Shown: in pieces, positions 15,115 to 62,971 of the stretch | Layout: each line of letters starts with the position of its first letter | Position numbering within the stretch: the stretch's first letter is position 1 | Assembly (NCBI RefSeq): GCF_041260155.1 | Contig: NC_091931.1 | Location: 29,725,041-29,789,040 of the forward strand | From: Ptychodera flava | Taxonomy: Eukaryota > Hemichordata > Enteropneusta > Ptychoderidae | Direction of reading: 5' to 3' | DNA: 64,000 nucleotides | Position numbers and translations under genes: made by a program | The notes under the pieces: generated by a model | Told to the model about the DNA's origin: nothing | Databases searched by the model: none | Seen by the model: the letters and a program-made list of their open reading frames with translations, nothing else

Positions 15115-18100
15115 TCATCCCGCCGATGTTCCATTCGCGGCGAGCGCCCAGTCTGGTACTTCGTCCAGCCCCAAAAGCCACCATCCGTAAGTGTTCATTG
15201 AAATGTTTACCACGGTGAGACAAATAACATTCATCATAACGCCAGTCTTTATCTATAAAAAAAAATCGTTGAATTTTTTCTGTAAGATCGTTTTAACCAC
15301 GCAGATAAAAGCTAAATGCAATTTTACGTTTCTAATGACAAAAACTGTTACAGCCAGAACATTTTTGTTCAGAAATGAAAAAATACAACAAGCAGAATTC
15401 TTTAGCGTATATTTCTCAATGCAACATTACTCTGAAAACGTTTACTTTGCGAAGTTGGCGGGTATAGTAATTTTCAAACCTCTGAGTCCAAACGTATAGT
15501 AGGCTGTATTTGAAAATTAAAATTATGCGCGGTCTAATACAGGGAAAACGTCGACATAGTCGTTCATATCGACGGAGATTCGATGATGCACTCCAAAACT
15601 TCCCTACGTTTCACGAGATAACTGAATCTTACCATTTGGAAGGTTGTAACGCTCTCGAAAGATATTACGAGAGCATTGACGAGTGAGCCGGCAGGTAAAC
15701 AGAATGCAAAGTTGATAGATAACGTCATGGACATTACTAAGTAGTAGGGGTGTATGCCTTGGGCGAGAGCCTGTAAACCGGAAGAAGGACACGTGAAATT
15801 ATGAACAAACTGAGATAAGGCTGCGATGAAGTTCAAACTTCCGGTATTATGGAACTTGCGTTTGTAAAAGTGTCACCGGAAATTTTTGTATTTATTTTTG
15901 TGACCAATTAGTTAGATGGTCACAGATTCTATGTATACTGGTAAAATACTTTAAAAAGTATTATCAAATATTGAGGATTGGATTGTGTTCATTGTTGATA
16001 AGCGATTAATTCGAGTACACAAAATAATGCACGTTATTTTATCCTAAAGGATACAGTAATCGGAACTGCCCTCAACGGTCGTAAGGGACCCATATCACCA
16101 ATGTAAACACTGTATCCAAGGTACGATGGTGATTGATGAAAGTTAAAACATGTCTGTCATAATCTACATCGTATGATTTAAATGTATCAGCTATGATGAT
16201 GAGGTGCATCTAGATATCGTGCACGAAATACATTGATTGTAAACAAAAAGCTCGCACAGGCGCAGTTCCGACGACTGTTTCCCTTTAAATAAACAAACTT
16301 CTTTCTCCTTCCAAATTCTGCTTTTTTGTTTACAAATCCAGTATCCTTCTCAGACACTGGATGATATCCTTCCGCATTTTGAAGACAAAATCTGTTCATT
16401 ACCAACATTCGCTGCACGCTATTGGAGGCTGTTTTTGAATATAGGTTTAGAAATTTACTGACTCAGAAAAATGCTACGTGAATTAGCTCAAAAAGTACAC
16501 ACTTCGTATACTCACAGTTTGAGTTAGTACTGGTATGACGATGGCAATTATAACAGAAGAGGTCATAAACTCCGTGAGGATTGAACAGACGACGGTCACG
16601 ATCAGCATCACCAGCCAGGGTGAAAGTTCTTTTAAAGGAGCAAACTGATCTTCTATTGAACTTGTTAGTCCCGTGACCTTGAAATGGGATTCAGAGATTA
16701 GAAGAGCTGGCGAGATTGAAGAAATGGTTTTGGAGAAGCAAAGGAGAGAGTTTTAGGGTGTTTTGGATTACTGTTGCATGGACAAAAGCTGGTAGAGTTG
16801 ATCACATTAAGCGTTCTGTCTCCCCACTTACCCATGGCCAATGCGCCTCGGGGACAAATAGTTGGACTCTTAAATTTTTACAATTCTTTTCTGATCTACC
16901 ACTTGTGCATGGGGGCTCATTTTAATGCTCTTGGAGAAAGAAAAAACTTTCATCGGTCTGGTTTTTCGAAAATCCGAAATTTAATTTTTTCCGGATTGAG
17001 TTAACACAGAAATGGCGGCCATTTTGAATTTCAAATATCGCAAAATGTCGGGTAATTTGTTTCGCTAGTTCCGAACTTTGCGCGGTGACCCCTGATTTTT
17101 ATTTTTGATTTCGTAAGAGAATGATTGAAAGTTTCATTTAGGAAAGTTTGAGCAGAAGTTTAAGTCTTTCACTTTTGAGGCGCATACTACCTTAAGTAAC
17201 CCGCCCCGCAAACATCAATTAAGGCCCTTTTACAAATTGGTGGCAGCGATGAAAGGAAGTTATAGAGAAAGCGAAAAGTGGCAAGGGAAGAGAGATTTTA
17301 TGACAGTGATGTTAAGGAGAGTGCTAAAGAGACGAGACGCACGAAACTGGAAGCATTAAAACATCAGGAATCTTTTCGTTTCATTTAGAATCGAACGAAA
17401 TAGCTGGTTAGTTGCTTTTCCTGCAAATACTTTGAAATTATTTGATACTTTTAATTCGGTGAAATTACAGACTGTTGACTCTGCACGCCTGAGACCCACT
17501 CGACATCACAATTGTGCAGAATGGCGGTGCTCCTTACTACCTTCATTGCTTGCACTGTCGATAGAAGTCCGCCAAGGTACAACACTATCCCCCAGGGTAC
17601 CGAACTCTCGCTGCTTTTCCATTCCAGCAACCCGACGTACGGTTTACGATCATCTGTGGAGAAGAGCGTTGGTATATCGCAAGAACTTGATCACAGTAAC
17701 AACATGATGTCACTGTCAAAACCAGACAAAATTTCACATGATTTATTTTTTCGATACAATATCGTAAACAGCAGTACAGATTCCATCGACTGGTACCCGG
17801 CTTTTGTGTGAGGGAGTACGTACATTCAAAGACATGGTTGTCGATTTCTGGAAAAAAAGTGTCCCTTCGCCTGAAATGTTTATGCCCGTGATTCATGAAA
17901 GGATGATAGTGCTGGTAACTGCCGCTTTGAGAAAACATATTACTGCTAACCTCGAATGTTGATGGACGGTTTTTCACCAGGTAAGGCATAGCAGATTAGA
18001 GCAACACCGGCAGTGACGGTACTGACTTGCACGTACCTACAATGTATACATAACATGAATAATTTATCGTGACTGTCATTAATGTTAGACACAGTAAATG

Positions 18101-21100
18101 CTATCGATGGTGTTTTTGCAAAAGTATTTTGTGAAATATTTTTGAAAAGTTCACAACTCTCAAAGTATGACATATTCTGGTATATTCAAACAAACCGATT
18201 GTGCAAATTCCTTCCAATGCAACTACAGAAACTCGCGTTACACTTTAAAACCTCGATGAAAATTAGTACGACACTTCACCATCAGTTTTAAAGCATTAAT
18301 TAAATGAAAATTTTAACTGCGTTTGGTGTTCATTAAAAAATATGATTTGAATCGGATTTTTTGACTTTCAATGTTGGGATTTCATGGTTATAATGAAATT
18401 AATATATAGGTTTGTTCGTATTGACGAAAGAGGGCATTTGTTTTTACTAGCCGAGATGCAACTAGAGCTCAGTTTTGAACTCTATTTCTACTCACCCAGG
18501 CATAAACCACGAACTCCATCCGGGCATGAAATTTGGGTCTTCGAAAAACCAGATCACAATTAACACAAGGAATACGACGATAATCATTTTCTCTGCCCAT
18601 CTTGTGAAAAAATGAAACACAGAAATCGAGCTATTGTTCTGTACCATTAGAAAATAAAGCCTTACTATCACCAAATATTCATATAACTGAAAATGCGTCG
18701 CAGTAACGGGAAGGCTTTTAGACACAAAAGTGCAACATGTCTTATTTGCACCAAAACAAGTGAGTGATTCTTGGTGATATTTTGTCAGCAGAGGTAAACC
18801 AACCAGAAATCAAATATATGCATTGACTCTTACTTAATTGGTCCCAACTTTTCGTATTCTCTTCGGAGAATGCGGACAATACCCGTCTTCTTTGTTGCCT
18901 TTGCTTTCCTTCTACAACATCTGACGACGCTTGTCCTAATTCAAACGTGTGTAATAAGGTAGGAGCAATGATATAATAATATAGGGTTATATCATTTCTC
19001 AATGATTCACTCAATCAATTTTGTAATCGGGTTTACCGATATTGTATGCAGAGAGTATACCCGAGTACTTAGTACACACAAAATTAATATATATATTCAC
19101 TTATTCTATTTTCTTATTGATCTTTGATTCAGTTATTTTTTTCCTCACAAGCAAATTTTGTTCACCTGTAAATAATCGAACTGACTATATAAGGCAGACT
19201 TATTTCACACTTGATTTGTTGATAGATGTAAAATAATTCAATACTTTTGCGTTTTGTAGACGCGCATTTTCGGATCATTGACATCAAATTCTTGCAGTAA
19301 CTTGCTATCCCTGTGTTGACGATGCAAATTTGACATATACCTCTGAATACAGTGGAAAACCCAAAACAAAGTGGGGCCGGATATTTTTTTGCGTGTGGTC
19401 CTCTAGAATCAGGCACAATCGCTGCACATGATACAAATCATCGGCAAATGATGAAAAATGAAAAACAGATCGTGTAGTACAAGAAGGCGTAATATAAATT
19501 CTCTTTGATAAGGCATAGTAGAAATTCCCTTTGACGTTTATTAATAACAGTATATTTCTGTGATAGAAAGATTTCAGTCTTGTTTCTATGGGATTTTTAT
19601 TGGGATATCTCTTACTTACTTCAAATCTAGATAAAACAACGACAGCCACGCCCATCCCAGTATCAGCGATACCAGCTGATTCGGCGCAGAAAACAGTACC
19701 CAGTCACCAAAATTCACTTTCGCTTCGGGACCATAATATCTGATAACACACAAAAATGAAATCAGCAGCAGTTCCAAAAATCATGAAGGGAGGCCCATTG
19801 TAAAGCTGGTGCAAATTCCAAAAAGCCAATCCCATAGTCTTTCTTTTCAACATTTTTCATCTTTCAGATATTCAAACAAGCACAAGCATCGATAAATGCA
19901 TGTGAATACTATCTCAGCATTGACTGAAGTGTGTCACAGCACTATAGTTCATACAAATGATTGACTGATGTGTGTTAAGGAGCCTCGTGTAAGTAGCCCG
20001 GCCGTTAGCAATCTTTCAAAACATAAACCCGTTACTTACATTTCTAAATAAGTGTTCATTAGAATCTGTGTTACAGTTCCCACCATGGAGCCAGCTCCTC
20101 CTATTGTGGTCGAGTAGATTAACCCAAGGTTGAAACATGTTTTCAAGTCTTCATTGGAATATGTTGGCTCCTTTGGAATGCATGTTTCAGTGAGATTGGC
20201 TGTACTCTTGACAATGTGACCTTCTCTTGGAAATGTGATGTTTTCCCTGTGACGCAACATCAAACATTTCCCCTATGTAATTAAGGTAGCATGTGCCTCG
20301 AAAATGAAAGAATCAAACACTTTTGCTCGAACGTGGCTAATGGAAACTATCATCCATTCTCTTTCAAAATCAAAAATAAATATTGTGAAATTTTGGTGCT
20401 CAAGAAACAAGTTACCTTAAACTGACAGATAATTTGAAATTAATGAAAATGACCGCTATCTCTGAGTCAAATCTATGGGGAAAAATTACATTTTCTATTT
20501 TCATAACCTAGTTTTATTTACTCGAAGATCTTCAGAATGAGCTGACACAAATGGTAGATTAGAAATAAAGTATTGTAAAACTTTGAGGGTCCAAATACAT
20601 GTCCCCGAAGTGTATTCTAGGTATACCTTTGTAGTGTACAACAACTCCAAGAAATGTGCTACACGGGACTGGTATGAGCAAACAACCCTAAAGTAACTCG
20701 GTGCACGGATGTGTAGATATTTTGTAGGCGGGATGGGACAGTTGGATGTACAGATTCGATTTGACGAAACTTGAATACTTGAAAGGGAGACTAGAAAACT
20801 GAACTAAAGAGTAGGGACGATTAAGTAACATTGTTGATAAACATCACTAGAATGCGTTGGAAAACCCAAGATTACCGCTTCATCCCGTCACCAGCGTCAT
20901 CAGCTTTCAGAGAGAGATCTTCAATAGGAATGTCCTGACAACTTCGGTTCTCGTCATCGGGGCTAGCCTGTACGAATGAAGAAATCGCGGTAGGTTATTC
21001 CGTATGTGGTGTTGCCTTTCGTTAAAAAGGGGCGTTTCATCATATATCTTTTATTTTTACAGAAAAAAGGTCAGTAAGTCAAATTACAATTTCGGTTGTT

Positions 21101-23338
21101 AAATTCAGACAAAAGAAGCAAAATTTATGATCACAGAGACTGTATGACTTATTATTACAATGTGCATATTTCATTAGTATAAGTACTTTCTGTTGCGGAC
21201 GCTTGAAAAGGTCAATAGGGATTAGTGTGGTCCGTGGCCAAACACTCAGAAACAAATCGCAGAACAAGATTCAGACATACACAGGTAAAATGCTCCCGGG
21301 GGGAAATATTCAAATCCTAAATATTGTACAACGCTGTTTCGGTCTATCACTTGATGGGGCTCATTTTTAAGCCTCAGAGTGAAAAAAACCTTTCCACCTG
21401 CTTGTTTTTGTGCAAATATGAAATTTAATTTTTCTCCATGGAGTTAACTCAGAGTTGACGGACATTATAAATCTCAAGTGTCAGTAATAAGAGCAATTTG
21501 TTTCCCTAGTACTAACTTTTGCACTGTGCCCCCTGCTTTTTATGCGTGATCTCGAGAAGCTAGGAATAATTTAAAGTTTCCTAACAGAAAGTTGTGCAAA
21601 ACTTTTAAGCCTTTCAATTTGTGTACTACCTAAACCGATGTGATCAATTTGCGGGTTTTTAAGGAGTTTCGTAATACCGATACAAAGGTTATGAAAAATA
21701 GTGATTTATGTATCACACGTATCGTTCATCTAACGCTGTAGGATTTTGAAATATGTCACTGTCATTTGGATGGCGGTATCAACAATGAATTCACAATCAT
21801 AATACCTACGTCTTTGTCTGAAGCTGCCAGCTGATCGACCAACGCCGAGACAATGGGTAACATCATAGAAACCAAGGCAAGGTTTAATATCCACATTGAG
21901 AAAAAACCGACCACGGCCATCAAGGCCAGCAATAACCTGAATCAAAGATGTTAACAATGAGTTGTTGTATTTTAACTTGGTAACGGTGATAATAAGCGAG
22001 GGTGTAACCAATTATCGTCATATGCACAATCCCATGGGCAGGCAACTAAAAGTGATCATTCCCTCGCTATAATATCCAATTTACATATAAAAACTACCAT
22101 AATGTTACAACGGAGGCAACTTTGTCCGTTTTATAACGCGAAATTAACCAATAACATGCACTTTTGAAAACTTTGTGAGTTTGTGCGTCTTATTTTCGTT
22201 GTTGTTGTTTTTTCTCGCGCAGAGATGTGTTGATTTGAAATGCTGCGCTTATCGTATACAATCTGGATAACGTGCAGCAATGTGCGCACATAATTTTGAC
22301 ATGCAGCTTTCAGTTCAGTGGACCTGGTTAGATAATGTCGACACATTTATACACGATTCATGAAAATTTATAGTATCAATGCTAAAGTACGAAGTACAAA
22401 ATACCAAGTTCAAGCCCATTGGCTCTCAATGGCTGTTTGCTACATGTTAAATCCAGAAAACACGGCCTTATCACTTCAGATCAGATAAGATGAAAAGTTC
22501 ATCATATGACTGTCTCTATTAGCTTTGTTAAGTTTTAGTGAGAAAAGGTGCACCATATCTTGAAATATAGCATTACATGTCAAAGTTTTCAGCTCTATCG
22601 ATAAGAACCAAATTTATTGAACACTTGATCTTTACTTACCATTTGGGATCTGACCCAGCTAAAAGCAACGCCCTGAGAGCTATTCTGCGGTGAAGCCCAT
22701 AATTTTTCACCGCTGACGCCATCAGAAGTACGCTGATGAAAAGAATGCCGTACTCAACCATGTAATACTCACAGACTTCCGCCATCGTCATGATTTCCAA
22801 TAAAGGGAGCAGCAATAGGGGTATCAATCCTACCACGGGCAGAGGTACGGCTTGCGTGATTAGCAGCACAAGCAGAATGCCCACAACATAGCCACATCTT
22901 GCTTCCTGCAGATTTATGTAGATACTAATTAATTATGTTCCTCTAAAACGTTTTAAACCCGTGGTGTCATCATCCCTCATCTGAATACCTGAAGTTCACA
23001 TATGCCGACATCTGTTGAATAAGGATTTATCCAACGTCCGAAGACATAGCTATCAACAAGGCTTTATATAGGTGAACACAGATAAAGAAACAGTTGTATC
23101 AAAATATATTTGAACTTCAACTACACAGTTTCTGAAAAAGTAACGATCTGACCATCGCTTAAATTGCGTGCACACCTTTCTATGCCGACTTAGAAAAGCT
23201 CACGATACTACATATATTGCTTACCTTTGATTCATAGTTCACCGCCAACAGTGGGCACATCAACAATGGCGTCAGTAAAAATATCAAAATATTCCTCTTA
23301 TAGTACACGTACTTCCAAAAGTCCTTGCACGAGGACAT
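15115..23338 (-). CDS. SLC13-like transporter, copy A (13 exons, complete, 581 aa)
   Basis: Multi-pass membrane protein of the SLC13/DASS (INDY) family, whose known members co-transport sodium with di/tricarboxylates or sulfate. Exons (minus): 23225-23338, 22640-22905, 21810-21936, 20876-20967, 20040-20246, 19620-19739, 18834-18911, 18496-18600, 17951-18036, 17541-17653, 16516-16677, 15633-15770, 15115-15252 (stop TGA). All junctions are GT/AG and the total is 1746 nt, close to human SLC13A2/A5 length. Boundary phases are 0,2,0,2,2,2,2,2,1,0,0,0. Family landmarks: start MSSCKDFWKYVYYKRN, HRRIALRALLLAGSDP after TM3, IGG at residues 248-250, EYEKLGPI, GLLEWK, LTEF, and NTYGWW near the C-terminus, which ends with an NGT glycosylation sequon. 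Odd: the first SNT motif reads LNL (144-146), the second TSS (475-477), GTxPN reads GTVTQ (256-260), and PPNA reads LVNA. A minus-strand AATAAA lies at 14948-14953. Family assignment is firm; substrate unknown. Confidence 0.93.
16831..17195 (+). mobile_element. AAGGTAG-family MITE, copy 2
   Basis: Internal marker GGCGGCCATTTTGAATTTC and right end GAGGCGCATACTACCTTAA are clear; the left end is worn (AATGCGCCTCGGGG). It lies in intron 10 of SLC13 copy A. Confidence 0.7.
20281..20629 (-). mobile_element. AAGGTAG-family MITE, copy 3
   Basis: Starts TTAAGGTAGCATGTGCCTCG and runs in the opposite orientation to copies 1 and 2, ending GTATTCTAGGTATACCTT. It lies in intron 4 of SLC13 copy A. Confidence 0.65.
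21282..21633 (+). mobile_element. AAGGTAG-family MITE, copy 4 (worn)
   Basis: AGGTAAAATGCTCCCGGGG at the left, GTGTACTACCTAA at the right, with family markers such as GAGTTAACTCAGAG inside. It lies in intron 3 of SLC13 copy A. Confidence 0.55.
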
Positions 23339-26705: not shown

Positions 26706-29700
26706 CTAGCCCAGTGACGTCACCGTTATGTTCGACGATAATGCCCAAGCAGGTACATCATCAAAGTTCAGAAACCACCATCCGTATGTGTTCACGCCAA
26801 TGTTTAACACCACGAGGCATATTATGTTCATTACCAATCCAGTTTTTATCTGAAGCGAAAAGAAAGAAAGAAAAATGTCAAATAAGATTTCTCATCTCCT
26901 TGCCACTTTATCGTACATCTTCATTGTTCGTCGCCTGGTTGGCTTCTAAATCAGATTCGAGGATAATCTATTCGATTTCAAGAGGAAGATTTCTTTTTTT
27001 GTTCACAGATCCGAATTCTTGACACTGACAAGAAATGAACTGAAACGGAAACTTATACTGTAGATGTATCGATACGTCTCGGGTAGTGAATTAAAAAAGT
27101 GAATTAAAAAGTACCCTAGCTTTTATGTTCTTCTTTACACCGCTGGATGGTGGCACAACTGCGAATTCCCTGAATGTACTCACTGGCAACAGTTTCGCCA
27201 CATTGTGCTATAAACTTGTCAGAACACTTAAGAACACTTTTTTAAGTTTCCCTTTTCTTGAACAAGACTTGGAAATACACGTTTTAGAATGTTATGGTAC
27301 CATACATATATACCAAACGGCGCGAATATCTCTGTATACCTTTTAATGTTGAAAAGTTAAGTTTACAGGAGCTTCATTATGAAACAATCATTAGGAGCCC
27401 AGTTATGAAAGATAGGTTAAGATCATAATTTATTCTTACAAACACCTCTGTAATTCTTTTACATATATACAAGGCCGATTAACAGAAGTGGACGAATAGT
27501 TAAATTGCAATGCAGGAGAAAAAACAGCTTCACATCTCTTTTTCAAGTTGAAAACGTGGAATTCATATTTTGGTCTTCAGGAATTTGAACACCTCTGGGT
27601 ATCGATACAGTAACAGTATAAGTTGTTCGTTGCCGATTTTAGTAGTGCTTAGGACCGCCACCCAGTGGTGAAATTAAACTTTAAAAGACATGGTGTTCAT
27701 TGAAATGCTGGCGCTGTTGTGAGGGGTTAAACTTACCATTTGAAAAGTGGTAACAGATCCGTATGAAATAATGAGTGCATTTACAACTGAACCAGCGGGC
27801 AAACAGAAAGCCAGGTTGGTGGCCAATGTCAACGACAGTATGAAGTAATGTGGATGAATGTCTTGTTCCAAAGCCTAAAAAATAATGTAGTACAATGACT
27901 TTGTGAATGAATTAAGATAGAAAAAAAAACTGAAGAAAGAGCGGAATTTAGATTTCAGATTTATATTTTTTGTTTTCTAATGTTTTACCTTTGCCTTTTT
28001 CTAATTGGAAAGACAACTCGTTTTACTATGGCACTCGTACCAAATGTGAAGGAAGACACAAATTTGAAAATAGCTTTGAGACTTCACCGCGTTTAAGAAA
28101 TCCATCAGCATTCCAGAGCAGATTGACTTCTATAAGTGAACAGCAACAAACTGATCACTAACAGGAAACATCGAATATTTCTTGAATGTTTTGCCAGACA
28201 GTGTCTAAATTTGAATCTAAAATAATCCCGGAATTGAAAATTGGTATCTTTCAAAAGGTGTACTTAAATATTCATCAGATCTTTGTACTGTTAGAATCGT
28301 CAGATATAACCCTCTACCATCGGAAAATCATCGTCTTAATTAAAGGATGACAAGAACAAGCAACTCGCAAACGACAAAAAGCATATAACTGGTCATAAAA
28401 CAAATAGTACTTTAACGTCAGGTTAAGAAACTTTACATATACCCCGTGGAAAATTTATCGAACTTACTGTCCGTGCGAGCACCGGTATAGTTACTGCCAT
28501 GACCATTGAAGAACTTATGAATTCCGTTAGCGCTGCACAAGTTACAGTTACAACGAGCATTACCAGCCAGTATGGGAGAGATGCTATGAACTCAAACTGG
28601 TCGCCAATAAGGTCTGCTAGTCCAGATTCCTAGAAGTCAATTTAATGACAAAACAAATTGACAGAAGCTCTATATTTGAGATCTCCGCGTAGCCTTCTCT
28701 ATTAAACCTAACATAAGATGAATCGCTTTTAAATATTCGAGAGACCCGTAACTTTGGACGAAGTCAAGAGTCACTCTTTAGGGATCATTTATATGTGCAT
28801 AAGAATTTTAGGACTGCATATTTTGACGAATGCTACAATAATGTGCAATTTTTCATGAATGTCCTGAAGACAAAAATAACTATATCGGCTTTTGGGGACT
28901 GTCACACTCCATAAATATTTTGTAGGTGTGGAGTAAATCATGTAATACCTCCGCTTGGAAATCCCTGTGAACGAAAAGTCTCTTTATCTCACCTTAGTGG
29001 CTTCAGCTGTGGATAGAAGTCCGCCGGCATAGATGAGTATGCCCCAAGGAACCATTGCGTCGGCGGATTTCCATTCTAACAAGCCCACATACGGCTTATC
29101 GTCTGCGTGGTAAAAATTACATATTGTCAAACAATGACAGTATATTTCTTGGGCATATTTTATGACAGTACCAATGAAGCAATGTCAAAGGCGAGGTGTC
29201 GTTCACAGTTCATTTCAATCTAGTCTGATTTGACGTTGCTCTGTCTCTTTTTTATGTTACAAGTACAAGCTTGAGTGCTAGGCAACCAAAGTGTAACTTC
29301 TCTCTGAAACGTCACGTCGACCTTTCTAAAACTTATTATAACTTTTTTTAGTAAAATAAGGTTCCAACTATGCATGCGACGACGGTTCAATTATACTACA
29401 AATAAAACTATACTACCAATGAAAACCAATTGCTATAGTATATACTGGAGGTTCAGTTCATTCTGTTGTATTCAAAACAAGACTTTTCACTGTACCAAAA
29501 AGAGATCACGATTTTCATCAATAAAATTTGATTTTAAAGACAGAAAGAAGTGTAACGTACAAGTCTATTTGGTATGCATTTACTCGGCTTTTGGTCATTT
29601 TTTTATTTCATTGCTTGCGATCTATACCACCGACAGAAAAGTCTCTCACCATGAATGTTAAACTTCGGTTTCTTTCTCGGTAGAATAAAACATATTAATG

Positions 29701-43290: not shown

Positions 43291-43327
<37 letters not shown>

Positions 43328-43346: not shown

Positions 43347-43919
43347 TCGTTGTTCTTTGTTGTTTTTGTGGTGGTGGTGGTGATGCTGCTGGTTGTGGTT
43401 GTTGGTTATTGTGTTGATTGTATAAGAGGGTAATCTACTTTTACATACAATTTCCCAAGACGATGATTTGTTAGTTGTATTGAATAAAAATACTTACTTC
43501 AGATCAAGATAAAAAAGTGCAAGCCACATCCATCCCAGTAACAACGATACTAGCTGTACAGGTGTGGAAATAACATCCAGTTTCCAAAACTTATCTTTGC
43601 TTCCGAGTTGTAGTAACTGAAGAGGAAATGCGAAAGACACGTTCTTATAAGGCTCGTAATGCGTATTTCTAACAATTGTACAAAGTGAGTCCCTTATCAA
43701 CTTTCAGATGTACTGGTAAATATATTTATCAAAAATGTTCTTATCTTTACAAAAGTGATACATTAATTTAAGTCTCATTTGAAATTCGGTCAAAAACTTG
43801 TTCCAGCATGAGACTAGCTGTCCATTTTGTCAATATGTGCAAAATGGTTCAAGCTGCTGAAGCTGATCGCAGAAGGTGTAATTAAATTGGAAAGTGCAGT
43901 TCTTTATGTTTCCACAGAG

Positions 43920-47400: not shown

Positions 47401-47555
47401 GACCAATCTTGACGGGTGTAGCATTCTAGCAGGGTACGCTTACCCATTCCGGACACCTGGTGCCACCACTAACTGTCAGTGGTTCAGGATGGTCCTACTT
47501 AAATTTGTAAATCTCAAATGTCCCATGGACCTGGTAATGTATTACCTTGAATGAA
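44450..47555 (+). mobile_element. Penelope-like retroelement, permuted (GIY-YIG before RT), degenerate
   Basis: Lies in intron 5 of SLC13 copy C, on the opposite strand to the gene. A GIY-YIG endonuclease region comes first (about 44634-45093): a Cys-rich start (CRHACHTRNC), then NVIYGI, CGLIYVEETG, a MYGHRSG-type segment and YWITELGTA. Reverse transcriptase follows (about 45830-47290): VVPADKAS, YWIPKLHK, FDFSTLYTTIPH, QSIGIPMGTNCA, YIDDLISL and YDKRDDFDFEIINYPHL. Canonical Penelope elements carry GIY-YIG after the RT. The order here is that of the Naiad/Chlamys-type elements described as a permuted clade common in invertebrates. The copy is spread over several frames, so it is an old, inactive fossil. 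Sequence around 47400-47480 resembles an element tail. Outer limits are approximate. Confidence 0.85.
44582..44612 (+). ncRNA. Possible degenerate hammerhead ribozyme core
   Basis: About 20 bases before the GIY-YIG ORF there is CTGATGG, a short GCC...GGAC stem with an ATTGA loop, then CGAA and a GTC ending at 44612. This matches the order CUGAUGA / stem II / GAAA / stem III / cleavage UH of a type I hammerhead, with several bases off consensus. Hammerhead motifs are known in Penelope-like elements at this kind of position. Stem I pairing could not be shown by eye, so this is a candidate only. Confidence 0.35.
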
Positions 47556-48790
47556 AATGATTATTGGACCAGTTTAATGTCATATTCCTTATTAGGTTTA
47601 TATATTTTGATTGACTTGACCAAAGTTGACGACACTTTTGCTATGTACATTGTAGATAATACGATATAACATCATTATATTCATTTAGCATTTTTATATG
47701 TGTCAATTACTAATTTGCGTATTTAATAAACTTTCCTAAATAGCGATGTATAATATCTGGATTGAATGGACCAACGTTGACGAAACTTGCTATGTATATT
47801 GTACATACTATGGTATAATATTACCAATTGAAAATAATCGCAATCAGACCAGTCCATATTCCGAAAACCCTAGGTCAAAATTCATAGTACAATAGCTAAA
47901 GACATAAACACAGAACAGAACAGAACAGAACAGAACAGAACTGACAGTAACGCACCAGTACACACTACAAAGTCAAAATCATGAAAGAATCATGATATGT
48001 GGACCTCTGGCCAAAAGACCAAGAAGTGATGTCAGGTGTTTCAAAAATGGTAAGCGCATCCTGCCCCACATGTGGCACCGCGCCATATATCAATCTGTAA
48101 GTCAGGTTGTGGTCACCAACTAAGGGCCAATGTCACAGACGCCATCGGCGATCATTTTTTGAAGAGAGATATCGTATTTATTTACCAGCTTGTGATACCT
48201 GCCAAAATAGCTTTGATGTCGTGACAAGTCTTTCTCTGGTGTAACCTTGATTTAATAGTTTGTAATAGAGATGGCTATGTCTCTCTACAAAATCATCATA
48301 TGGCATGCTTCTGCACATCGAATAAGCTGGGAAATGTATACATCATAAGCTGGTAAGAGTGGAATATTACTGATGAGGTGTGGGAAATTGATGATACTTA
48401 AGTTGAAATCATCTCTCTTGTCATAGTCAGTTTTGATTTTGCAAAACATCTTTTCACTAACTTGCATGTTTAATTGACTGCATCGAAGTCAATTAAACCT
48501 GCTATGTACATCGAAGAAAGTTAATAAAATATTAATTAATTAATTGTTTAGCATTTTACTAGCTACATATTTCATTAACCTTCCCAATTAGGGATGTAAG
48601 ACTGGAAGGACTCTAAAAAGGTTTATGAAATTTGCTATGTATATTGATGAGACTATTTTGTTCTATAAGTTAAAAATATTTTGCATTTTTATGTCAACGA
48701 ATTTATTATTTGTATATCTAATGAGCTTTCACAGTTTAGCATATGTAACTTGAAGGACTTGACTCAAGGCAATTACGCTCGCTATATAAA
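47556..48790. repeat. AT-rich repeat units flanking the Penelope-like fragments
   Basis: Units with AATTTGCGTATTTAATAAAC and TTGACGAAACTTGCTATGTA at about 47700-47830, and again at about 48470-48780 beyond the minus-strand fragment (47990-48470). They are the same family as 43920-44449 and 33860-34930, so the retroelements sit within or between units of this repeat. A short AGAAC pentamer run lies at 47911-47941. Confidence 0.5.
47990..48470 (-). mobile_element. Second Penelope-like fragment, opposite orientation
   Basis: The minus-strand translation shows YDKRDDFNLSIINFPHL, SNIPLLPAYDVYISQLIR and, further on, LSRHQSYFGRYHKLVNKY and MIADGV. These are the segments that follow the RT core in the neighbouring plus-strand element. 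Only the 3' part of the coding region is present, with several breaks. It faces the 44450-47555 element tail to tail inside the same intron. Confidence 0.7.
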
Positions 48791-51700
48791 GTGGTGATAC
48801 AATTACAGCAGTCAAAGAAAGTTAGTATTTTTTAGGTAATTCCACATTTTACATACTTATCCGCCTTTGGTCTGTGGTGAATATCAGTCGTGATGTTGAT
48901 CCCAACAATTTCAATGAAGTTGCAAATATGTGGCAAAAGTTTAAATTCATAGACAACTGCAATATATACTGAAACATGTGAGCATTTTCAGTTCATATCT
49001 GGTATTCAATCTTGTTCGAATGAAATGCTATGTTTTATCGAGTGGAAGGTTATGTGTGTTAAAAACTATCTGAAGCAGCACCATTTTTCAAGTAGTGATA
49101 CTCACATCTCTAGATTGGCGTTCATTATAACCTGTATGATAGTGCCTACCAGCGACGCAGCTCCACCAATAGTGGCGGAATAGACTAGCCCAAGGCTGAA
49201 ACATGTAGTGAGGTCTCGACGGAGATGTTTTTGTTTTTCTTCGTCTGCGTTTTCAATGTCGTCTGCCTTTTCCGTGTTATTGAGAATCTCGGTGCTCTTG
49301 TTGAGTATGTCGTAAACCTCTGCGATGCCTCTAAAATGCACATATTCCTTTAGTGAGGCCAAATGGAAATTTGACGGCTGTCTGATAAAATGCTAGAACA
49401 TTTAAAATTAAAATGCCGTGGCCTAAAAGGATAGAGTATGCATATTAAGAAATATCTACCCTTGTACTTCGATTTCTTCTTCTCGGAGCATTGATTCCAC
49501 AGTCACAGTTTCCAGTGGGATTGCTATCCCGTTGTGCGCCTTCTCTTCATCGGACACCTTGTGTATTAGAAAAACCAACATCACACTTTTGTGAGCCATG
49601 GTATGCACAGACTCTGCACAGTTTATCAGTCTTTCTCTTTCATTCTTCTTTACATATTCATGTGATGAAGCACACTAGCGTATATCACAAACCATTTTTA
49701 TGAATATATATTGAAACAAATCAACTTTATGCTTTCAATGGAAATGTTCCACTTTGTGAAAAAATTTGATCTTTAATTGTTCCGAAAGTGTGCAAATCTC
49801 ATCTGGAAATGGAGCCGCTATGTTGTGCTAAACCTTCACTTTCAAGCAATGTCACGTGCACACAATAGCCATTATCTAGAGGAACACAATTAAGAGTAAA
49901 GATATTTGAAATACATAATACTCTTCCTTTTACAATGTTTAACTAGTACCTTTTCGTCCCCTGACATATCAGTACATGAGGTTGACAGCTGGTTCACCAG
50001 AGCCACGACGATGGGCACCATCATCGATACCAGGGCAAGGTTTAAAATCCACATCGACAGGAATCCAGTCACGATCATCAGAGCAAGCAATAACCTAAAT
50101 CAAAGTTTGATAGACTATAAACGCAAAAGCCATTATTTAATAAAAGTGAGATGAATATTTACGTATGCGCTGTTTTCACAGTTCTTTTCTGAATCATTCC
50201 CGTCGAAGTTTGTCCGATCAACGTCGACGAAACGAACAAACACACACGACACGCAACAGAACAGTTGCAATAAGTGGATTAATGGGTTGAGTTATTTATT
50301 CTTTAAAAGGTTTATTGAACTGGGTCGATAACTGTTGGAAGACATCGAGAAAGGTAGAATTCCAGGCTCAATAGCCGGAAGAAAGGGAGACTCGCAAATA
50401 GGTGACTCGATTCGACTTGACAAACTCTGAACGATATGTGTATTCATCAATGTTTTTTTGAATTAATCTCGCCATGCAAGATCTTGCAAGTTCTCAGGGG
50501 TCCATCCTGAATTCATCGACCTAAAATGGAAACTATCACATAATAACCCACAAAGTCAATGAAAACCTTTCATTTAATTTTTCTTCTCAAGATGTCACTC
50601 TCTATAGTATGCTTGTTTCATAATCGCATTTTTCATTAAACATACATCTATAAGAAGGTCGTTCATCTTCTGTTTTAAGCACAACACACAACATTACTGT
50701 TCAGATGAGTTTGTGGTTCAAGAGATTTGCTTATCTTGACGGCTTTTCGCTCGCCTTTAAAAAGGACAATATATCAACAAGCAATGAGTAGTACGTGTTT
50801 TTTCGATAACAAATAACATGCCCAGAGTAACCTATCTCCAAAATCAACAGTGAACGCATGTTTGCTGATACTCGCAAGGATAGGATAAAAGATTAATTAT
50901 ACAACATATCAGTAAACTCTAGAAACTAGATCAATGTGTAACACGATGCAGTTTTAGATAAATATACAAATTAAGCCGCATCTTAATGGGATTACAATTT
51001 GTACATTGTCATTTTGAGAGACTTAACGTCATTTACAGAAGGGATAGAGTCACTGAGTTTTAAGAAGCAGGGATAGTCTTAAGACATACTGACCATCATC
51101 ACTCGCTGATTGGACAATGGGTTAGCCATTCCTCGAAATTCTCATGTACGTAGTCTTTGTCTATCACAAAAATTACACATAATTAATGCTGACTAATCTT
51201 TAAACAATATATTTTTGATCGAATTTCAGCACCACGTAAACTAAACTATAGTGGTACGTCTCAAATGACATGAGCAAAGGCAATCTAGCCTGAAGATTGC
51301 TAGATGCACGCAACTTAAGTAACAGATATACTTACTCTATACTTGTAATATATATTTGGGAAAGTGGAAGGGTAAGGTTTGTATTCCTAAAAGCAATTGT
51401 TACGAAGTTTACCTCTTTGGATCAGATCCAGCCAGAAGCAATGCCCGCAGTGCAATCCTTCGGTGGAGTCCGTAACGCTGTACAGCCGAAGCTATAAGCA
51501 TTATGGCAATGAAGAGAACAATGAACTCGATCATGTAAAATACACACACGTCCGCCATGGTTAAAACTCCAAACAAGGGATACGTGAGCAGCGGTATCAG
51601 TCCTGTTACAGGCAACGGAACAGCTTGTGTGGTCCATAGGACAGCCAATATTGCCAGGACGAAGGCACATCTTGCAGCCTTTTATTTGTAGAAAGAAATT

Positions 51701-52122
51701 TCATGAATAATAAACGTGACATAGAACCTCTATGGAATTCAAGTATATATTCAATTGATAATCTTTCGCATACATAGCATCCAAATCTGTGTGATATTGA
51801 CATTAAAATATAACCAATGCCCATATATTATTATAATGACCCTGGAGTGGTCCTCGCCCTGTCTAGTGATAGTAACCCGTAACCATTGTCTTTCTTAAAA
51901 TTAAAGGTAAGTATGGACCAACTTTAACAGGAAACGTATGGCTAATGCGCTGTACTCAAACTTCGTAATGACTTCAATTAAAGATCAATGTTTAAATCTT
52001 GTCAATACCTGTGATTCGTAGTGAATAATCAGCAACGGAGACAACAGCAAAGGCGTCAAGAGAAGAATTAAAATATTTCGCTTGAAGTACAAATATCGCA
52101 AGGCGTCCTTGCAGCTCGTCAT

Positions 52123-54030
52123 GTTGACCCACGCCGTACGGTGTACTGAACTGTGGTGAAAGCACTTCGGGAATGTTCTTGAACCCGCTTTATCACGACA
52201 GATCGCCTGGTATGGCTAACCTTACTGTAAATAAGAGATAAGCTTTATAAACAGCATGATCAATGACGTTAATAGAATCAAAGTAGAGTGCATTGGAACT
52301 TTGCATGCTAACCCCTGTCAAAACGTTTCTTGTGAATTGCTTGAAACAGAATGGCAAGGTAAGTGCTTTGTCAACCATGTGTTAACCAAAGACGTGGTAA
52401 AAGTGTGGGTGCGACTAATATGACAGTATGTCATTAAACAATGTAAACGATACAAACCAGTCCCTGCGACAGCTTCTCGGATGAAGACACATTTTGGTCG
52501 AACTATCAAAATACATGTACGCAATATTTTTACCAAGCATTTTCAGTATTTGGCAACATTTTGTATGCATTGCATGTCAAGCGTGGCCAGCAGACTTTGA
52601 CCGCACTGATACATATTTGTTTGAGTGAAAATTTCATAAACCTCCATCATGTAGATCTTTTAACATCCCGATAACTGTCTTCTCTAACCAGCTGCATTGC
52701 CTTCTCAGATAATTCCTTCCCAGCAAATACCTGGTATTGTGATGTCAATTTCGTTAACCTCCAGCATAGACCGCTTCAAAATATATGGGCAGTGTTTCTC
52801 ATGGACGTATTGAATGAATTGCATTCATGTATTTTTAATCGATGCACCAGGTAATACTCGTTCTATGCATTGACACATACGTGCTAAATATTAGAAACTT
52901 TGAAGTAGTCATCATGATTAAACAGATAAATTGTACCTTAATGCTAAAACATGCCATAGTCAATTTCTAAAATATAAAAAAAAACTTTGATAGATTTTCA
53001 TAGTAAATTAAAACTTCCTTTTCAGTTGAATGATTGAAGACTTTTTAAAAACACTGACATTATTTTGTTTGTCTTTTTATTAAAATATACATATATAATA
53101 AAAAAAGGAAACTCAGTCAATTCTTATTTTGACTCCAATTATCTCACGCAAAGAAAAAGTTGGTATGACACAGTCCAAGGAATATACGTCTGAAACACAA
53201 TAATATCATTTTATTTAGGCAAGATATATCTGAATAAGATGACTACCTCATATAAACAGGGGCAGACGGATGTCAATCTAAGAGAAATGAAGACTTTGGG
53301 GAACTAATATAATTATTCTTCCTTTCATATTTAATATTGCCAATAAAAAACGGTCTCCTCTCCCGTTACTCAACACGTCCATTGCAACCCTGGATCTACT
53401 TTATCTCAATCTAACGGTCAACATCATGGTGTACACTTACGGTTAAGCATTTACCTACAGTAAGTTACTGCAAGCTGTCCTCGGTGATATTTACCACCCC
53501 CGGATAACATGGGGGAGTTTTGTGGACGAAATTCCGTTTTGGAAAATGAAAATGGTTTGGAATAACCTGAGAGGGGTGGAGTGGATGATGGTATCAAAAC
53601 ACATTGTTTCGCGACAGAAATCCACATGTGAATCTTTCATAAACAATATACAAGGTTTTTACGTGAAATTGAGACGACACGTAACAATTTACATTGAAAT
53701 ATTACCCAAGAGCGATTAATAATTGAGAGTGTCTTTTACGCTCTGTCTAGTCTTTCAATATGCAACATATACTTGGTTTCGTTTTACTTACTTAATCATG
53801 AACAAGTTTATTCAATAAATGTAGTAGACGACTTCTTTGAATTATAATTGTATCGAATTTTTTTAAACATTTTGCGTTTGGAATTGCCCTGAATTTGTCA
53901 TGTCTCCATGTTTGGGTACATGCAACATTATTTCATGTTTGTTTCCTCGCGTGGCTTGACCTTCTGTTAGACAAATCAACCTAGTCAACTGACCAAATAT
54001 TTGCAGAATAGGTCCAAGTTGTAACATCTC
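52123..54030. other. Intergenic region upstream of SLC13 copy C
   Basis: Should hold the copy C promoter. AT-rich, no supported exon or clear repeat seen. Confidence 0.5.
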
Positions 54031-54889
54031 TTAGTACAAAACCCACATTCCACACGTGTTCAAAACCACGTTTAATACCACGAGGCATACTATGTTCATC
54101 ACAACCCAAGTCTGTACCCAAAGTGAACAATGAAACAAGTGGTATTAATTTTCAAATCTTATGACACTGGATCTTATATCTGAAATTCGGAATTCATTGA
54201 TGTTGCGATGCAACTCTCGTTGTACAGAACTGCATCATTTGTACCGTTACTTTTTCATTTCCTGTTGATTTTTTTTCACCCGAATGCCCTAGTGGAATTC
54301 ACGGATGTCAGATTATAAAGTGCCATTTACGGTCAGACAAGTTTTATGCACTTCGTACTTATTCCAGTTTTAAGGACAGGAAAATAACACTTAAACCTCT
54401 GCCTGATGCCTTTACGTGCGCCCTCTTGTGACGTAGAAATGAGAAATCGCCATTCGTTTGGTCATATATTCTTTAAATTGAATTTTTAACCATCAAGTTG
54501 AAATACCACGACAGTTTCATTAAATTATAATAGAGCGCTTATGAATGAGCTAGACGGCAACCAGAAAGTCAGGTTGAGCGACAGGGTTAATGATAACAGA
54601 CAGAAGTACGGATGAATTTCTTCTTCCACTACCTACAATATTAAAATGTGTTTAGATATATACGTAAACATATGAATTTGTCGCACTGACGTTCTCCTTT
54701 ATGGATGTTGATTTTTCGATAATGACCAAGTCAACAAATACCCATCAGAAACATGTTTCACTTTAACATTTTTAGAAAGTGGCGTATTGCATGATAAAGT
54801 TCAGTCATTGAACATCTTATGCGACATCTGTGTAGTTCTACAATAAATATCAGTAATTTACATCCACATTAAATATCCAACTTTTTACA

Positions 54890-55500
54890 TTAAGGCGATA
54901 CCGAATAATTCAAAGCGCGCGTTGGTTGCCATCGCTGGCAACGTTCCAAACGCGCACTTTTGCACGTGCAAAATCTTACCGTTCCGTTTTTTTCATGGAT
55001 TTTCGACTCCTGGTACTTTGAAAATGCTCAAAATCTTTCAACTCTCTCAATTGTAAACCAACTTAGCTGACGTTTGGTAGGATTTGGTAAGCATGCGTTT
55101 CTAAAAATTCCGGACCGTTTGTGAAATATCGCCATTAGACCCTTCAAAATTTCACAAAATGACAGAGTAGATATTTTGCTGTTCAAAAATCGTTTGTACT
55201 TGAACAGATAATTTAATCCATGCTAGGGGCTCTAAACAGGTATCTCATGTGTTACATTCTGAAATTTTGGAAAATTTGGTGCAAATTTGTAGAAGCTGAA
55301 ACGTTTTAAAGTAGAGCTATGAAAATTTGTATATGTGTGACGTCACTGACCAATCGCGCGACAATCTGCATCTTTGGAATCGCAGGGTTCTGTAAACCTT
55401 TGTTATGCTAAAACCATGAAAACTTTGTATTTTGATTGATTTTGGAAATTACCCGTATCATCCGTTGCTTAGCAATTTGAATCCTTAGGTAACGCCTTAA
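54890..55500. mobile_element. TTAA-ended MITE, 611 bp
   Basis: Starts TTAAGGCGATACC and ends GGTAACGCCTTAA, an inverse match of the start with one or two differences. Near the left end a hairpin is built from GCGCGTTGG, TTGCCA/TGGCAA and CCAAACGCGC. No ORF. It sits between the exon 12-like and exon 11-like remnants of SLC13 copy E. Confidence 0.65.
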
Positions 55501-56596
55501 ACCTTACATGTTATAGGGATAGATTTTTTAACCATTTTCTGAAGACACCTTTTCACACTTACCGTTCTTGTAAGCCTTGGTATAGTAACGGCCATGATCA
55601 GATTGACACTCATGAATTCTGTGAGCGATGAAGCAGCTAAAAGACCTCAAGCAGTATTAAACAGTATTGAAGAGATGACACGAACTCAAACTGGTTCCCA
55701 ATCAAATCTGCCAGTCTCCAGATACCTTGGAAAGAATTTCAACGTCATTTACATGCACAGTTGAGTGATTTGTTTGTACAGAACATGTTGGTCCCTTGTC
55801 CCCAGAATAACCAAATTCATGAGAAACCCTAGCACTTAAATGCTTATTTAAATCTATTACTCCACAGTCAGTAATTTCATTGCAGTTCCAGTTAGCAAGA
55901 TTGCCGACTTTTCCGTACGGTCATAGATTCTTCATAGAACATGGAAATTTTGAGGTATTCAACAGATCGAATAGAATTCCATAGGACCTTCTTGCTTCAC
56001 GATTGTTCGCTCGAAAAAAGGGTAAACCTTGTGTCATAATTCGAGAAGTACAGAATAAACGATTGCCTTCACTGGCCTAAATATGACCTTCTTCCGTTCT
56101 GCACTCATACGATACAGTGCCGATCACTGTATGAGTTGTCTTTTTATCACCTTGGTGGCTTCAAGTGTCGACAGAAGTCCTCCGGCGTGGATAAGCATAC
56201 CCCAGGGAACCATCGCCGCTGCCGATTTCAACTCCAGCAATCCTGCGTATTGTTTCCTTTCTCTGAAGGTTAAAGTAATATGAGCACGATTTGAACTTAT
56301 TTAGGAGAATATGATATTGTTGTAATGTCAGTTCAATCCGCAAATTTAAGGTCATCTACTTTCGTTTTTTCGCAATTCACTTGTTTTATAGGTAATTTTT
56401 AATTTTGCAACTTACAGCTATACGGAACCTAACATAAACACTTTATAGATTTGAATAATTAAAAGATCCTATGCTCCCAAATTAGTTCCTATCGTGTTTT
56501 TTGTATAATAATTGCCTGTGTTGTCAATATAAGTAGACAATAATACCCTGTTTCAATTTGCAGCGGTTCTTACCTATGGTCACTTATTATTCATAA

Positions 56597-56742
56597 GACA
56601 TCTCTAGTTATCGCTCCATTTCACTGCTCCCAACTTTATCGAAGGTTCTTGAACTCCTTGTTTGCAAACAGCTTATCACCTTTCTCGAAACAAATGATGT
56701 CCTTTTTACCCATCGTTCTCAGCTGCAGGTTTTCGTATGAAG
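56597..56742 (+). mobile_element. LINE (non-LTR) reverse transcriptase fragment
   Basis: An open stretch reads DISSYRSISLLPTLSKVLEL, then LVCKQLITFLETNDVLF. This is the highly conserved N-terminal RT block (YRPISLLP...SKVLE) of jockey/CR1-like non-LTR retrotransposons. Only about 48 codons are recognisable before a stop. No other LINE domain was found nearby. It lies between the exon 1 and exon 10 remnants of SLC13 copy E. Confidence 0.75.
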
Positions 56743-57495
56743 CACTCAACAGCATCTCAAGTACACAGCATGGCAACATTTTACAAGTGGTATAGTCAAA
56801 GTGAAGACATTTAAGGTGCTTGTGTACATATTGAAATGAGGTCAAAGGTTACGCGGTCAAAGGTTACGTTCTAAAAGGGTTGGTTAGAGTGAGGAGTGGG
56901 GGCTTGGAAACTTAGGGGAAATGCATGAAGAAAGGTCCTGATTTTCACGATATTCACTTCATTCTCTCTTCTTATGCCATCCTTTCTCGATCCACGTCTT
57001 CTTCATCAATCTAGATGACTGTATAGTAAGAACAGGTAGTATCAAAAGAGAAGAGTTATTCATTACTTAATTTAATAAGGTTTTTAAATAATAAACAGTA
57101 CGGCTATTTAATTCGTCATTTTATGTATATTTATCATCAGTCTGATTTTGGATTATTTGGAATAGTCCAAGTTTGATGTTTTCAATTTTTAAAAGTTCTG
57201 TATTGTATTGTGTTCAATCCATGAAAATCAGAGGTTTGCATTGTAACAGGTTTCATTTTCGTCGTATCTCTGGAAAATGCAGACAAATACTTATTTTTGC
57301 AGATAAATGAAAGATAAATGACGTAATTTACGATCAGCGCTATTGTTATGTCGAGAGTTGGTCAACCGGCAAAAAATAGAAGGTCCTTTTCAAATATAGA
57401 AGTCAAAACTCTCTGTGTACAAATTATAACAATTACCGTTGAATTGTAGTCAGAATCAAGATCCGCGCGCCGGTCGGCCGGGCCGCTTGCTTGCT
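56743..57495. other. Non-coding stretch inside SLC13 copy E remnant
   Basis: Exons 2-9 would be expected here, but none is detectable. A GCTT run at about 57485-57502 marks the edge of the exon 1 remnant and of the segmental duplication. Confidence 0.5.
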
Positions 57496-57541
57496 TGCTT
57501 GCAGTACAAGTATCTCAGGACACCCTTGCAGCTCGTAATAT

Positions 57542-60399: not shown

Positions 60400-62971
60400 C
60401 TAGCCCACTGACGTGAAATTTGCAGAGAAGGCCCAGGCAGGTACATCATCAAAGTTCAGAAGCCACCATCCATATGTGTTCACACCAATGTTTAACACCA
60501 CTAAGCATAGTAAGTTCATCACAACTCCTGTTTTTATCTAAATTAATAGGAGAAACAAATTTCATTTGCAATATTCATATTCGGGAATAATCGGTCAATT
60601 ACATAGTGCCACGTCTGCTGTGTGCAATGAATTATTTTTAATCGCCAGGTTTATTTACAGCTGTAAATAATGGTTCACCAGACCTGTTTACTTTGTAGTA
60701 AAGTAGTTGTCCACTAATTCGCCGGTAGAATAAGGCAAACAGTAAGGTAGTCTGCGTGTCAAGGGCGAAAGACTTATCTCGAACTCTCCTCGACTAAACT
60801 TTCAACCATTTTCTTTCGAAAGCGAGGATAAAAATCAGAGTCATCGCGCAAACTTTGCTACCAAAGAATCAAACTACCTAAAAAATAATGATATTTGAAA
60901 TTCAAAATTGTCGCCATCCCTGTCTTAATTTAAGCGGAAAGTAAATTTTCGATATTCACAGAAACAAGTAGGTGAATACTTTATTTACTCAAGAGCTAAA
61001 AATGAACCTACGCAAATGGTAGATCAGAAAACTATCGTAAAAAATTTGAGAGTCCGAGTATCTTTCCCCGAGGCTCATTCTACCTTAAAGTGATTCCTGG
61101 GGTAAAGGTGACACCTGGGTTTGCACTACGATTGATCGCTTCATGGACTTTTTTGAGGAGACGGAAATAACATTTGAAATGAGAGGCGAAAGGGGTATAT
61201 GTATGTGCTGTTCTCAGTGCACAGGGATTCGTGCTTAAATATTGAATGAAATACCTACCATTTGAAAGGTTGTGACAGATCCATTTGATATTACCACAGC
61301 ATTGACAATTGAACCAGCCGGCAAGCAGAAAGCTAGGTTGAGCGACAGTGTTAATGATAACATGAAGTAATGCGGATTAATATCTTGTTCCAATGCCTAT
61401 GTTGGTAGAAGATTATCATTTGTTACACTATTGTTTAATATACAGAACTAACAGGAAAGCAATTAACTCTAAGTTTCACGTTGAATGCCAGTGTAAATAT
61501 TTAAAATTCCTCATGCTTGAATGACTAAGCAACATAATATCGCTAATTTAAGTTTCAAATCTTATAATGAAGCAAGGAGATATCTGATATGGTTTTCACT
61601 AAACAGATATTTTCTAAGGATAAAATAGTTGTCTCAAAACACTTAAGGTAAAATGTGCCACAGATACAAATATTCCGACAGTTTTTGCAATACTTTTCTG
61701 GTCTACCATTTTGTTTTTAATTGAAACAAAGTTCTTACTGTCTTATTTTTTCAATCTGTCGCACACTTTGATGGCGGAAATTTTTAGTAAAAAAAGTAGG
61801 TAAACAGGAGGTGATGTGTTTTTTTGTGTTACCAAGGTTTGCAAGATGTCTCATGAATTTTATTTTTGATTTAGTACGGAATGGACCAGTTTTCTTGAGG
61901 AAATTAAAGTTTGAGTAAAAAATGAAGTCCTTCTGTTTCGAGGCTTGCAGTGCTCTAATGTAGTAAGCACCAAGACAGTGAAAGACTTACCTTTTGCTCA
62001 ATTCTTCCTAAATGAAACTTTCAATTATTCTTTTACCAAATCAAGAAAAAAATCAGGGCTAACTGTTCAAAGTGTGGTACAAGAGAAACAAATTACTGAC
62101 ATGTATTGATATTTGAAAATCGAAATGGCCGCCATCTCTGTGTTAACTCTTTTGGAAAATACTATTTTAGATTTTTGAAAAAATAAGTCGTTGGAGATTT
62201 TCTTTCTCAAAGAGCTTTAAAATGAGCCTCCGAAAGGGGTAGATCAGAACGGATTGAAAAGGTTTGAGAGTTCGAATATCTGTTCCAAAGGTTCATCAGT
62301 CGAATGATGCATCTTCTGGAAGAAAAAAGGTTATTGTATATATTTTGTCTTACTATCCTCGCAAGCACTGGTATGGTTACAGCCATGATGATCGAGGCGC
62401 TCATGAATTCCGTCAACACTATACCCAAGGCAGTCACAACAAGCAAAACCAGCCAGTAGGGAAGAGAAGCCATGAACTCAAACTGATCTCCAATGATGTC
62501 TGCAAGTCCAGTTACCTTAAGATAAATTTAACAGACACGTTCCTGAAAATTTGAATGTAAGAGCCCACCTCTACCTCCACCACTCTCGCTCTTGTACAGC
62601 AAAAGTCACTGCGACATAAAACTCTGCAAATAGCTTGATCACTATCTTATTTTCTATGTTGGCAAACTTTACGGCAGCTTTAACTTTTCAGCACACACTA
62701 TACCGTTGATAGAAAGAGGTCTCTGTGTAGCTTGAATGGTTTAAATAGACTAAAAACTAATTCATAACTGATGAAATCTTGATACATGATGATTTGGTCC
62801 ATCATCATACCAATTCCGACATAAAAAATTGTAAACCATGACTTGATTATCCGAATCGCACCTTAGTGGCTTCAAGTGAAGATAGAAGTCCGCCAGCAAA
62901 GACGAATAGACCCCAGGGAACCGTTGCTTCAGCGGATTTCCATTCCAACAAGCCCGTGTATGGCTTTTCGT
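60400..62971 (-). CDS. SLC13-like transporter, copy D, 3' part only (exons 10-13)
   Basis: Four exons at the right edge (minus): 62862-62971, 62354-62515, 61259-61396, 60400-60537 (stop TAG). They match copy C exons 10-13 in length and phase and are open. They encode GLLEWKSAEATVPWG, LTEFMSASIIMAVTIP, LPAGSIVNAVVIS and a C-terminus with an NFT sequon. The exon 10 donor is GTGCGA, weaker than in copy C but usable. Upstream exons 1-9 are expected right of 64000. The homology to copy C fades near 63780, and exon 9, expected there, was not found. Whether the whole gene is functional cannot be judged from this window. By eye it differs from copy C at about 30 of 548 coding positions, mostly amino-acid-changing. 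Confidence 0.85.
60743..61088 (-). mobile_element. AAGGTAG-family MITE, copy 8
   Basis: AAGGTAGTCTGCGTG at the left and GAGGCTCATTCTACCTTAA at the right. It corresponds to copy 5 across the segmental duplication, in intron 12 of SLC13 copy D. Confidence 0.6.
61643..61960 (+). mobile_element. AAGGTAG-family MITE, copy 9
   Basis: TTAAGGTAAAATGTGCCAC at the left, worn right end. It corresponds to copy 6 in the duplicated segment, in intron 11 of SLC13 copy D. Confidence 0.55.
61961..62305 (-). mobile_element. AAGGTAG-family MITE, copy 10
   Basis: GTAGTAAGCACCAAGACAG at the left, AAATGGCCGCCATCTCTGTG inside. It corresponds to copy 7, with the same head-to-head arrangement. Confidence 0.55.

Follow-up and report, generated by a model that had tools for sequence, protein, structure and literature searches.

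Retained tandem SLC13-like genes with changed Ser-Asn-Thr motifs in the hemichordate Ptychodera flava

The minus strand of a 64,000-nucleotide stretch of the hemichordate Ptychodera flava (assembly GCF_041260155.1, contig NC_091931.1, positions 29,725,041 to 29,789,040; hereafter the window) carries at least five SLC13-like copies arranged head to tail, namely A, B, C, a decayed fifth copy and D, in which residues that define the sodium and substrate sites of the family have been changed. Copies A and B combine near full-length homology to SLC13 proteins, intact genes and these residue changes with purifying selection. Based on their sequences, we regard it as about an even call that A and B encode SLC13-derived elevator carriers with a rebuilt pocket, which would bind at most one sodium, would lack coupling through the second sodium site (Na2) and would move a less charged or less polar solute. 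Homology is the usual ground on which SLC13 members are assigned a function, namely sodium-coupled transport of citrate, dicarboxylates or sulfate. For this retained tandem clade such an assignment is probably wrong, since some of its defining residues are gone and the genes are still under selection. The copies offer natural variants for asking how the two-motif site divides the handling of substrate and of sodium among its parts, and whether the first sodium site (Na1) can work without Na2.

Copy A (15115..23338) and copy B (26706..36294), both on the minus strand like every copy described here, each have 13 exons with AG/GT at all junctions and encode 589 and 571 residues, respectively. The exon models are open throughout, which bears out the first-pass annotation, made from the letters alone, in its description of both genes as unbroken over 13 exons; the exon 3/4 border of B, in the cytosolic loop, is uncertain. 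Judged by profile matches and phylogeny, the window copies are SLC13 (DASS) proteins by descent. The Pfam family PF00939 (Na_sulph_symp) matches A with 173.8 bits (profile positions 5-470 of 472) and B with 192.3 bits (positions 6-468) at a cut-off of 27, and among PDB entries B matches human NaDC3 best (E 6.5e-105). Neither copy reaches the NCBI cut-off of 198.6 for TIGR00785, the family of DASS sodium-coupled symporters (A 134.9, B 164.1), which human NaDC3 (229.3) and the bacterial locus L001 (305.4), used as controls, both exceed.

A tree of 25 rows (three window copies, with C stripped of its two broken exons, the four human proteins SLC13A3 (NaDC3), SLC13A5 (NaCT), SLC13A2 (NaDC1) and SLC13A1 (NaS1), and 18 prokaryote proteins) places the window and human rows together on one side of a branch with 100/100 support, opposite the prokaryotes; the branching order among the window and human rows is open. 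The window clade, itself supported at 100/100, has a stem 1.88 changes per site long, compared with 0.13-0.33 for its own tips. The tree holds no invertebrate SLC13 sequence that would break this stem, so that its length does not date the motif change. Identity of A, B and C to the human four is 29-35%, as against 42-56% within the human four. A search of prokaryote genome contigs seeded from B itself found no relatives of B.

In sodium-coupled SLC13 members, the hairpin HPin carries Ser-Asn-Thr and the hairpin HPout carries Ser-Asn followed by Thr, Val or Pro. Neither sequence is present at these positions in the window copies. Ser140-Asn141-Thr142 of human NaCT aligns without gaps with Leu-Asn-Leu (LNL) at residues 144-146 of A (21879..21887), B (33038..33046) and C (50037..50045), the very letters and residues reported for motif 1 in the first-pass annotation. 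Ser464-Asn465-Val466 of NaCT aligns with TSS at residues 483-485 of A (16555..16563), with SSS at residues 463-465 of B (28507..28515), and with SAS in both C (40433..40441) and D (62393..62401). The letters of this second motif stand as first given, but their numbering (475-477 in A, 469-471 in B) does not, a difference that probably arose because the exons of the cytosolic loop were drawn differently. Both motifs had been described as replaced; changed they are, yet motif 1 keeps its middle Asn and motif 2 still begins with Ser or Thr. The gap-free alignment of both hairpins speaks against intact Ser-Asn-Thr motifs elsewhere in these proteins.

The changes extend to two opposing loops, L5 and L10, which the first-pass annotation had not mentioned, as is also true of the decayed fifth copy. 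The window copies were aligned with four human and four prokaryote relatives in order to tabulate the pocket. In L5, GTGPN of NaCT (226-230) becomes GTVTQ in A, GTINQ in B and GTIIQ in C, which turns the pattern GTxPN into GTxxQ, and in L10, ATPPN of NaCT (507-511) becomes GSLVN in A and C, GSVVN in B and GSIVN in D (pattern GSxVN). Ser499 of NaCT, in transmembrane helix 10 (TM10), is Asn in all four copies. According to PMC10980263, human NaDC1 holds Na1 through three backbone carbonyls and the side chain of the HPin Asn, and Na2 likewise with the HPout Asn; citrate is held by the Ser and Thr of HPin and a Thr of L5, and alanine at S140, N141, T142 or N476 each markedly lowers currents. Further ligand lists for the table came from PMC5413979, PMC13394699 and PMC9098524.

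By alignment, all Na1 ligands (S136, I139, N141 and G226 of NaCT) are kept as S, I, N and G in A, B and C. Set against the NaDC1 ligands reported in PMC10980263, the loss at the sodium sites claimed in the first-pass annotation was overstated. What is actually lost is the Na2 Asn (N465 of NaCT, the side-chain ligand, which is Ser in A and B and Ala in C and D), the two substrate-binding hydroxyls of HPin (at S140 and T142 of NaCT, both Leu in A, B and C) and the proline loops. A, B and C retain the equivalents of N141, T227, S464 and N511, with the exception of a Thr at 464 in A. In VcINDY, S377 and N378 of HPout are reported to bind one succinate carboxylate (PMC5413979) and N203 and S412 to hold a structural water (PMC13394699). 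For VcINDY the positions come from published equivalences, those of P201 with NaCT 228 (printed as 288) and of T421 with T508, which would place N203 and S412 at NaCT 230 and 499. At these two positions (residues 249 and 498 of B) the Asn/Ser pair has become Gln/Asn in A, B and C, a paired change that, as far as the alignment goes, looks like repacking rather than decay.

The Leu residues that flank the HPin Asn have no counterpart among the prokaryote relatives sampled. We assembled 67 prokaryote PF00939 loci, mostly the best match per genome and thus biased towards strong matches, of which 61 could be read by profile, and 80 further loci that were seeded partly on the Ser-Asn-Thr pattern and are biased accordingly. 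Leu at position 140 or 142 (NaCT numbering) was found in none of these 141 loci; the less biased figure is none of the 61 high-scoring Pfam matches. This absence indicates that LNL is not a product of chance. Asn occupies position 141 in 52 of the 61 loci and position 465 in 58, and all 80 loci of the pattern-seeded sample have Ser-Asn-Thr in HPin. Among the 48 loci with a profile score above 250 and eight references, N141, N230, N465 and P510 account for 1.00 of the letters present. The description of the Ser-Asn-Thr motifs as nearly invariant is apt for those members that most resemble the human proteins. Variants do exist in the set of 61: HPin reads Pro-Glu-His or Gly-Glu-His in seven and departs otherwise from Ser-Asn-Thr in ten more. 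In five of the prokaryote loci (L106, L107, L109, L111 and L122), HPin has Pro-Glu-His, L5 has GGARG and HPout has SNA or SNS; four of the five lie within open frames of 878-909 residues. Exchanger-type members have S-A-M, S-T-T or S-A-T in HPout. Among the matches listed from the open-access literature, PMC9357087 included, the text available held no SLC13 clade that we recognised as lacking the motifs, which is weak evidence of absence.

That the change is old and has been retained, as was first proposed, is well supported by the comparisons among copies. Synonymous sites between A and B are saturated (proportion of synonymous differences, pS, 0.76 by Nei-Gojobori; nonsynonymous distance, dN, 0.28), and the ratio of nonsynonymous to synonymous distance (omega) is 0.12 (0.07-0.19) for A-C and 0.20 (0.15-0.26) for B-C. 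Within the 11 codons of the motif-1 tip in HPin, A and B differ by five silent changes and no replacement, and no replacement is found there among A, B and C. Of the four stretches compared this one has changed least; the codons replaced between A and B number three of 18 in L10, six of 17 in L5 and seven of 16 in the HPout stretch. Hairpins and loops taken together are under tighter constraint than the remaining sequence in A-C (omega 0.10 vs 0.13), B-C (0.14 vs 0.23) and B-D (0.11 vs 0.25); for A-B the comparison is of dN only, which is again lower in hairpins and loops (0.22 vs 0.30). The window clade is divergent in general, pocket included. Of 72 columns conserved at 90% or more in relatives, there are 23 in which none of the window copies compared has the consensus residue, so that the surrounding sequence is well kept, as had been stated, only in part. 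Whether change is confined to the pocket was considered as well; with p=0.08 for a concentration there (see below), we make no such claim.

Taken together, these residues suggest how A and B might work. The HPin hydroxyls have given way to Leu, a small L5 residue to Ile or Val, the HPout Asn to Ser in A and B and to Ala in C and D, and the Pro-Pro of L10 to Leu, Val or Ile followed by Val. Judging from published structures, a site rebuilt in this way would scarcely be able to grip a divalent carboxylate or sulfate between a pair of Ser-Asn-Thr tips, or to hold Na2 with a side chain; the Na1 site could form even so. The pocket would then be hydrophobic on one side and hydroxyl-rich on the other. 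With Na2 lost and Na1 perhaps retained, the proteins would not be sodium-coupled divalent-anion symporters: they would have lost Na2-coupled transport of di- or tricarboxylates or sulfate and kept the elevator movement of some solute, whose charge or polarity we infer to be lower than that of citrate, succinate or sulfate. As the pocket residues were replaced and then preserved, the window proteins probably do a different job. Elsewhere in the superfamily (Pho90, ArsB, fly INDY and the exchangers), members with an altered motif differ in substrate or coupling and have not lost transport. The alternative drawn in the first-pass annotation, between altered coupling or substrate and a non-transporting member, remains the right one.

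Several observations weigh against such a carrier. Judged by position in the sequence, the hairpin tips and loops have gained no charged residue that would occupy the vacated sites, so that no alternative coupling ion is visible. Several residues, each needed in NaDC1, have changed at once, which could mean no transport at all, and alanine at the Na1 or Na2 sites is reported to abolish transport in VcINDY, NaCT and NaDC3 (PMC13394699). The hairpins are no more constrained than the rest in A-D (dN 0.31 vs 0.30) or C-D (omega 0.46 vs 0.47), and C-D is a recent pair under weak constraint overall (omega 0.47, 0.25-1.03). The HPout tip and L5 vary among the copies. Finally, changed conserved columns are not significantly enriched within the pocket (9 of 18, compared with 14 of 54 elsewhere; p=0.08), a result that holds with a stricter threshold (6 of 13 and 11 of 44; p=0.18) and with human-invariant columns (7 of 17 and 43 of 132; p=0.59).

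The main rival explanation, which we consider doubtful, is that A and B are non-transporting homologues in which the retained fold serves as a receptor, regulator or partner subunit around a dead transport site. The absence of several residues on each of which human NaDC1 depends (PMC10980263) would fit such a role, as would the scores below the TIGR00785 cut-off, but a dead site sits poorly with a motif-1 tip free of replacements in A, B and C, with the full set of Na1 ligands, and with the added constraint on hairpins and loops in A-C, B-C and B-D (though not in A-D and C-D). It is improbable that the proteins still transport divalent anions by relying on the amides of the backbone, on helix dipoles, on Na1 and on those Asn, Ser and Thr residues that are left, possibly independently of sodium like fly INDY. 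The four equivalents kept in A, B and C (N141, T227, S464 or its Thr substitute, and N511) speak for this, and so do the exchanger-type members, which also do without the HPout Asn, and fly INDY, where S169A is described as retaining activity and S479A as raising it. Yet HPin is described as Ser-Asn-Ala in fly INDY and, where found, reads S-N-T or S-A-S in exchanger-type members, whereas here both flanks are Leu, and the Arg and His of the exchangers are absent from the window copies. That the genes are decaying or the models wrong, so that the changes would carry no meaning, gains something from the broken state of C and of the fifth copy; open frames over 13 exons, complete splice sites, a saturated synonymous distance and low omega make it very improbable for A and B. 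A more specific version of the rebuilt carrier, which we hold to be unlikely, would see an animal SLC13 subfamily converted from a sodium-driven pump for divalent anions into a carrier of a partly hydrophobic solute that is neutral or bears a single charge. Its pocket would be one-sided, with a hydrophobic HPin and a hydroxyl-rich HPout, and would take one sodium at most, convergent in kind with ArsB; the tandem copies, which differ at the HPout tip, may then differ in substrate.

Comparison with known systems places these proteins apart from each of them. They resemble the four human proteins in near full-length homology, in the 100/100 grouping and in the Na1 ligands, and differ from them in both Ser-Asn-Thr motifs, in GTxPN and ATPPN and in their low identity. 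Drosophila INDY, a citrate carrier that we compare by its published description, is likewise an animal SLC13 protein whose first motif has changed (to Ser-Asn-Ala), and it works without sodium coupling; it keeps Asn in both motifs and has Ser-Asn-Val as the second, whereas the HPout Asn is lost here. Its coupling is disputed, with one paper reporting proton symport and another electroneutral exchange without a cation. DASS exchangers of the LaINDY type share with the window copies the loss of the HPout Asn, which is Ala or Thr in the six sampled loci showing the HPout pattern (L085, L094, L095, L096, L124 and L125) that we class as exchangers by their Arg and His after the account in PMC7553777. 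A His in HPout and, detected everywhere except in L085, an Arg following the HPin motif set these exchangers apart, and the window copies have neither: Leu follows LNLA in A, B and C, and no His or Arg stands at the HPout tip of A to D. Replacement of sodium by Arg or His, as described for LaINDY in PMC7553777, was also considered and set aside: neither residue stands at the vacated positions. Published descriptions give Pho90 a His in HPout and ArsB neutral arsenite as substrate with protons as coupling ion; both are superfamily members in which the Ser-Asn-Thr positions differ and the substrate or coupling ion differs too. By published residue numbers, and not by alignment, the Ser-Leu in L2 of ArsB resembles the Ser-Leu or Ser-Val in L10 of the window copies; ArsB differs in keeping Asn in both halves and in its pocket aspartates, and Pho90 in the His of HPout.

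The remaining copies are incomplete in different ways. In copy C (38492..52122) all 13 exon positions are recognisable, but exon 6 (43616-43498) has 119 bases instead of the 120 found in A and B and runs into a stop, and no frame is open across exon 7 (42694-42623) with the borders chosen; these two breaks may mark a pseudogene or an assembly error. The fifth copy (54024..57539), located between C and D by blastn, tblastn and reading of the sequence, consists only of pieces of exons 1, 10, 11, 12 and 13, lacks an ATG, has a stop inside the exon 12 piece and has exon 11 divided between two frames; its motif 2 region reads SVN. Copy D (60400..62971) comprises the 3' part of a gene with exons 10-13 open, and no earlier exons were found as far as window position 64000. 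The 3' halves of C and D (38300-41200 and 60200-63200) represent a recent duplication, with about 80-82% identity in three aligned stretches and blocks of 82-96%.

Elsewhere in the window, ARAGORN detected no tRNA, Rfam gave no family above its gathering score, and Pfam assigned no family to nine of ten further open reading frames tried. At 4413-4793, on the minus strand, lies part of a gene for a rhodopsin-family G-protein-coupled receptor (Pfam 7tm_1, 42.7 bits). Within intron 5 of copy C, open pieces on the plus strand (44631-47319) look like a retroelement, though three of them matched no Pfam family. Two inverted repeat pairs (133 nucleotides at 87% and 200 nucleotides at 73%) occur at 33800-34252 in intron 2 of B and at 48574-49003 in intron 5 of C, and are perhaps a dispersed repeat.

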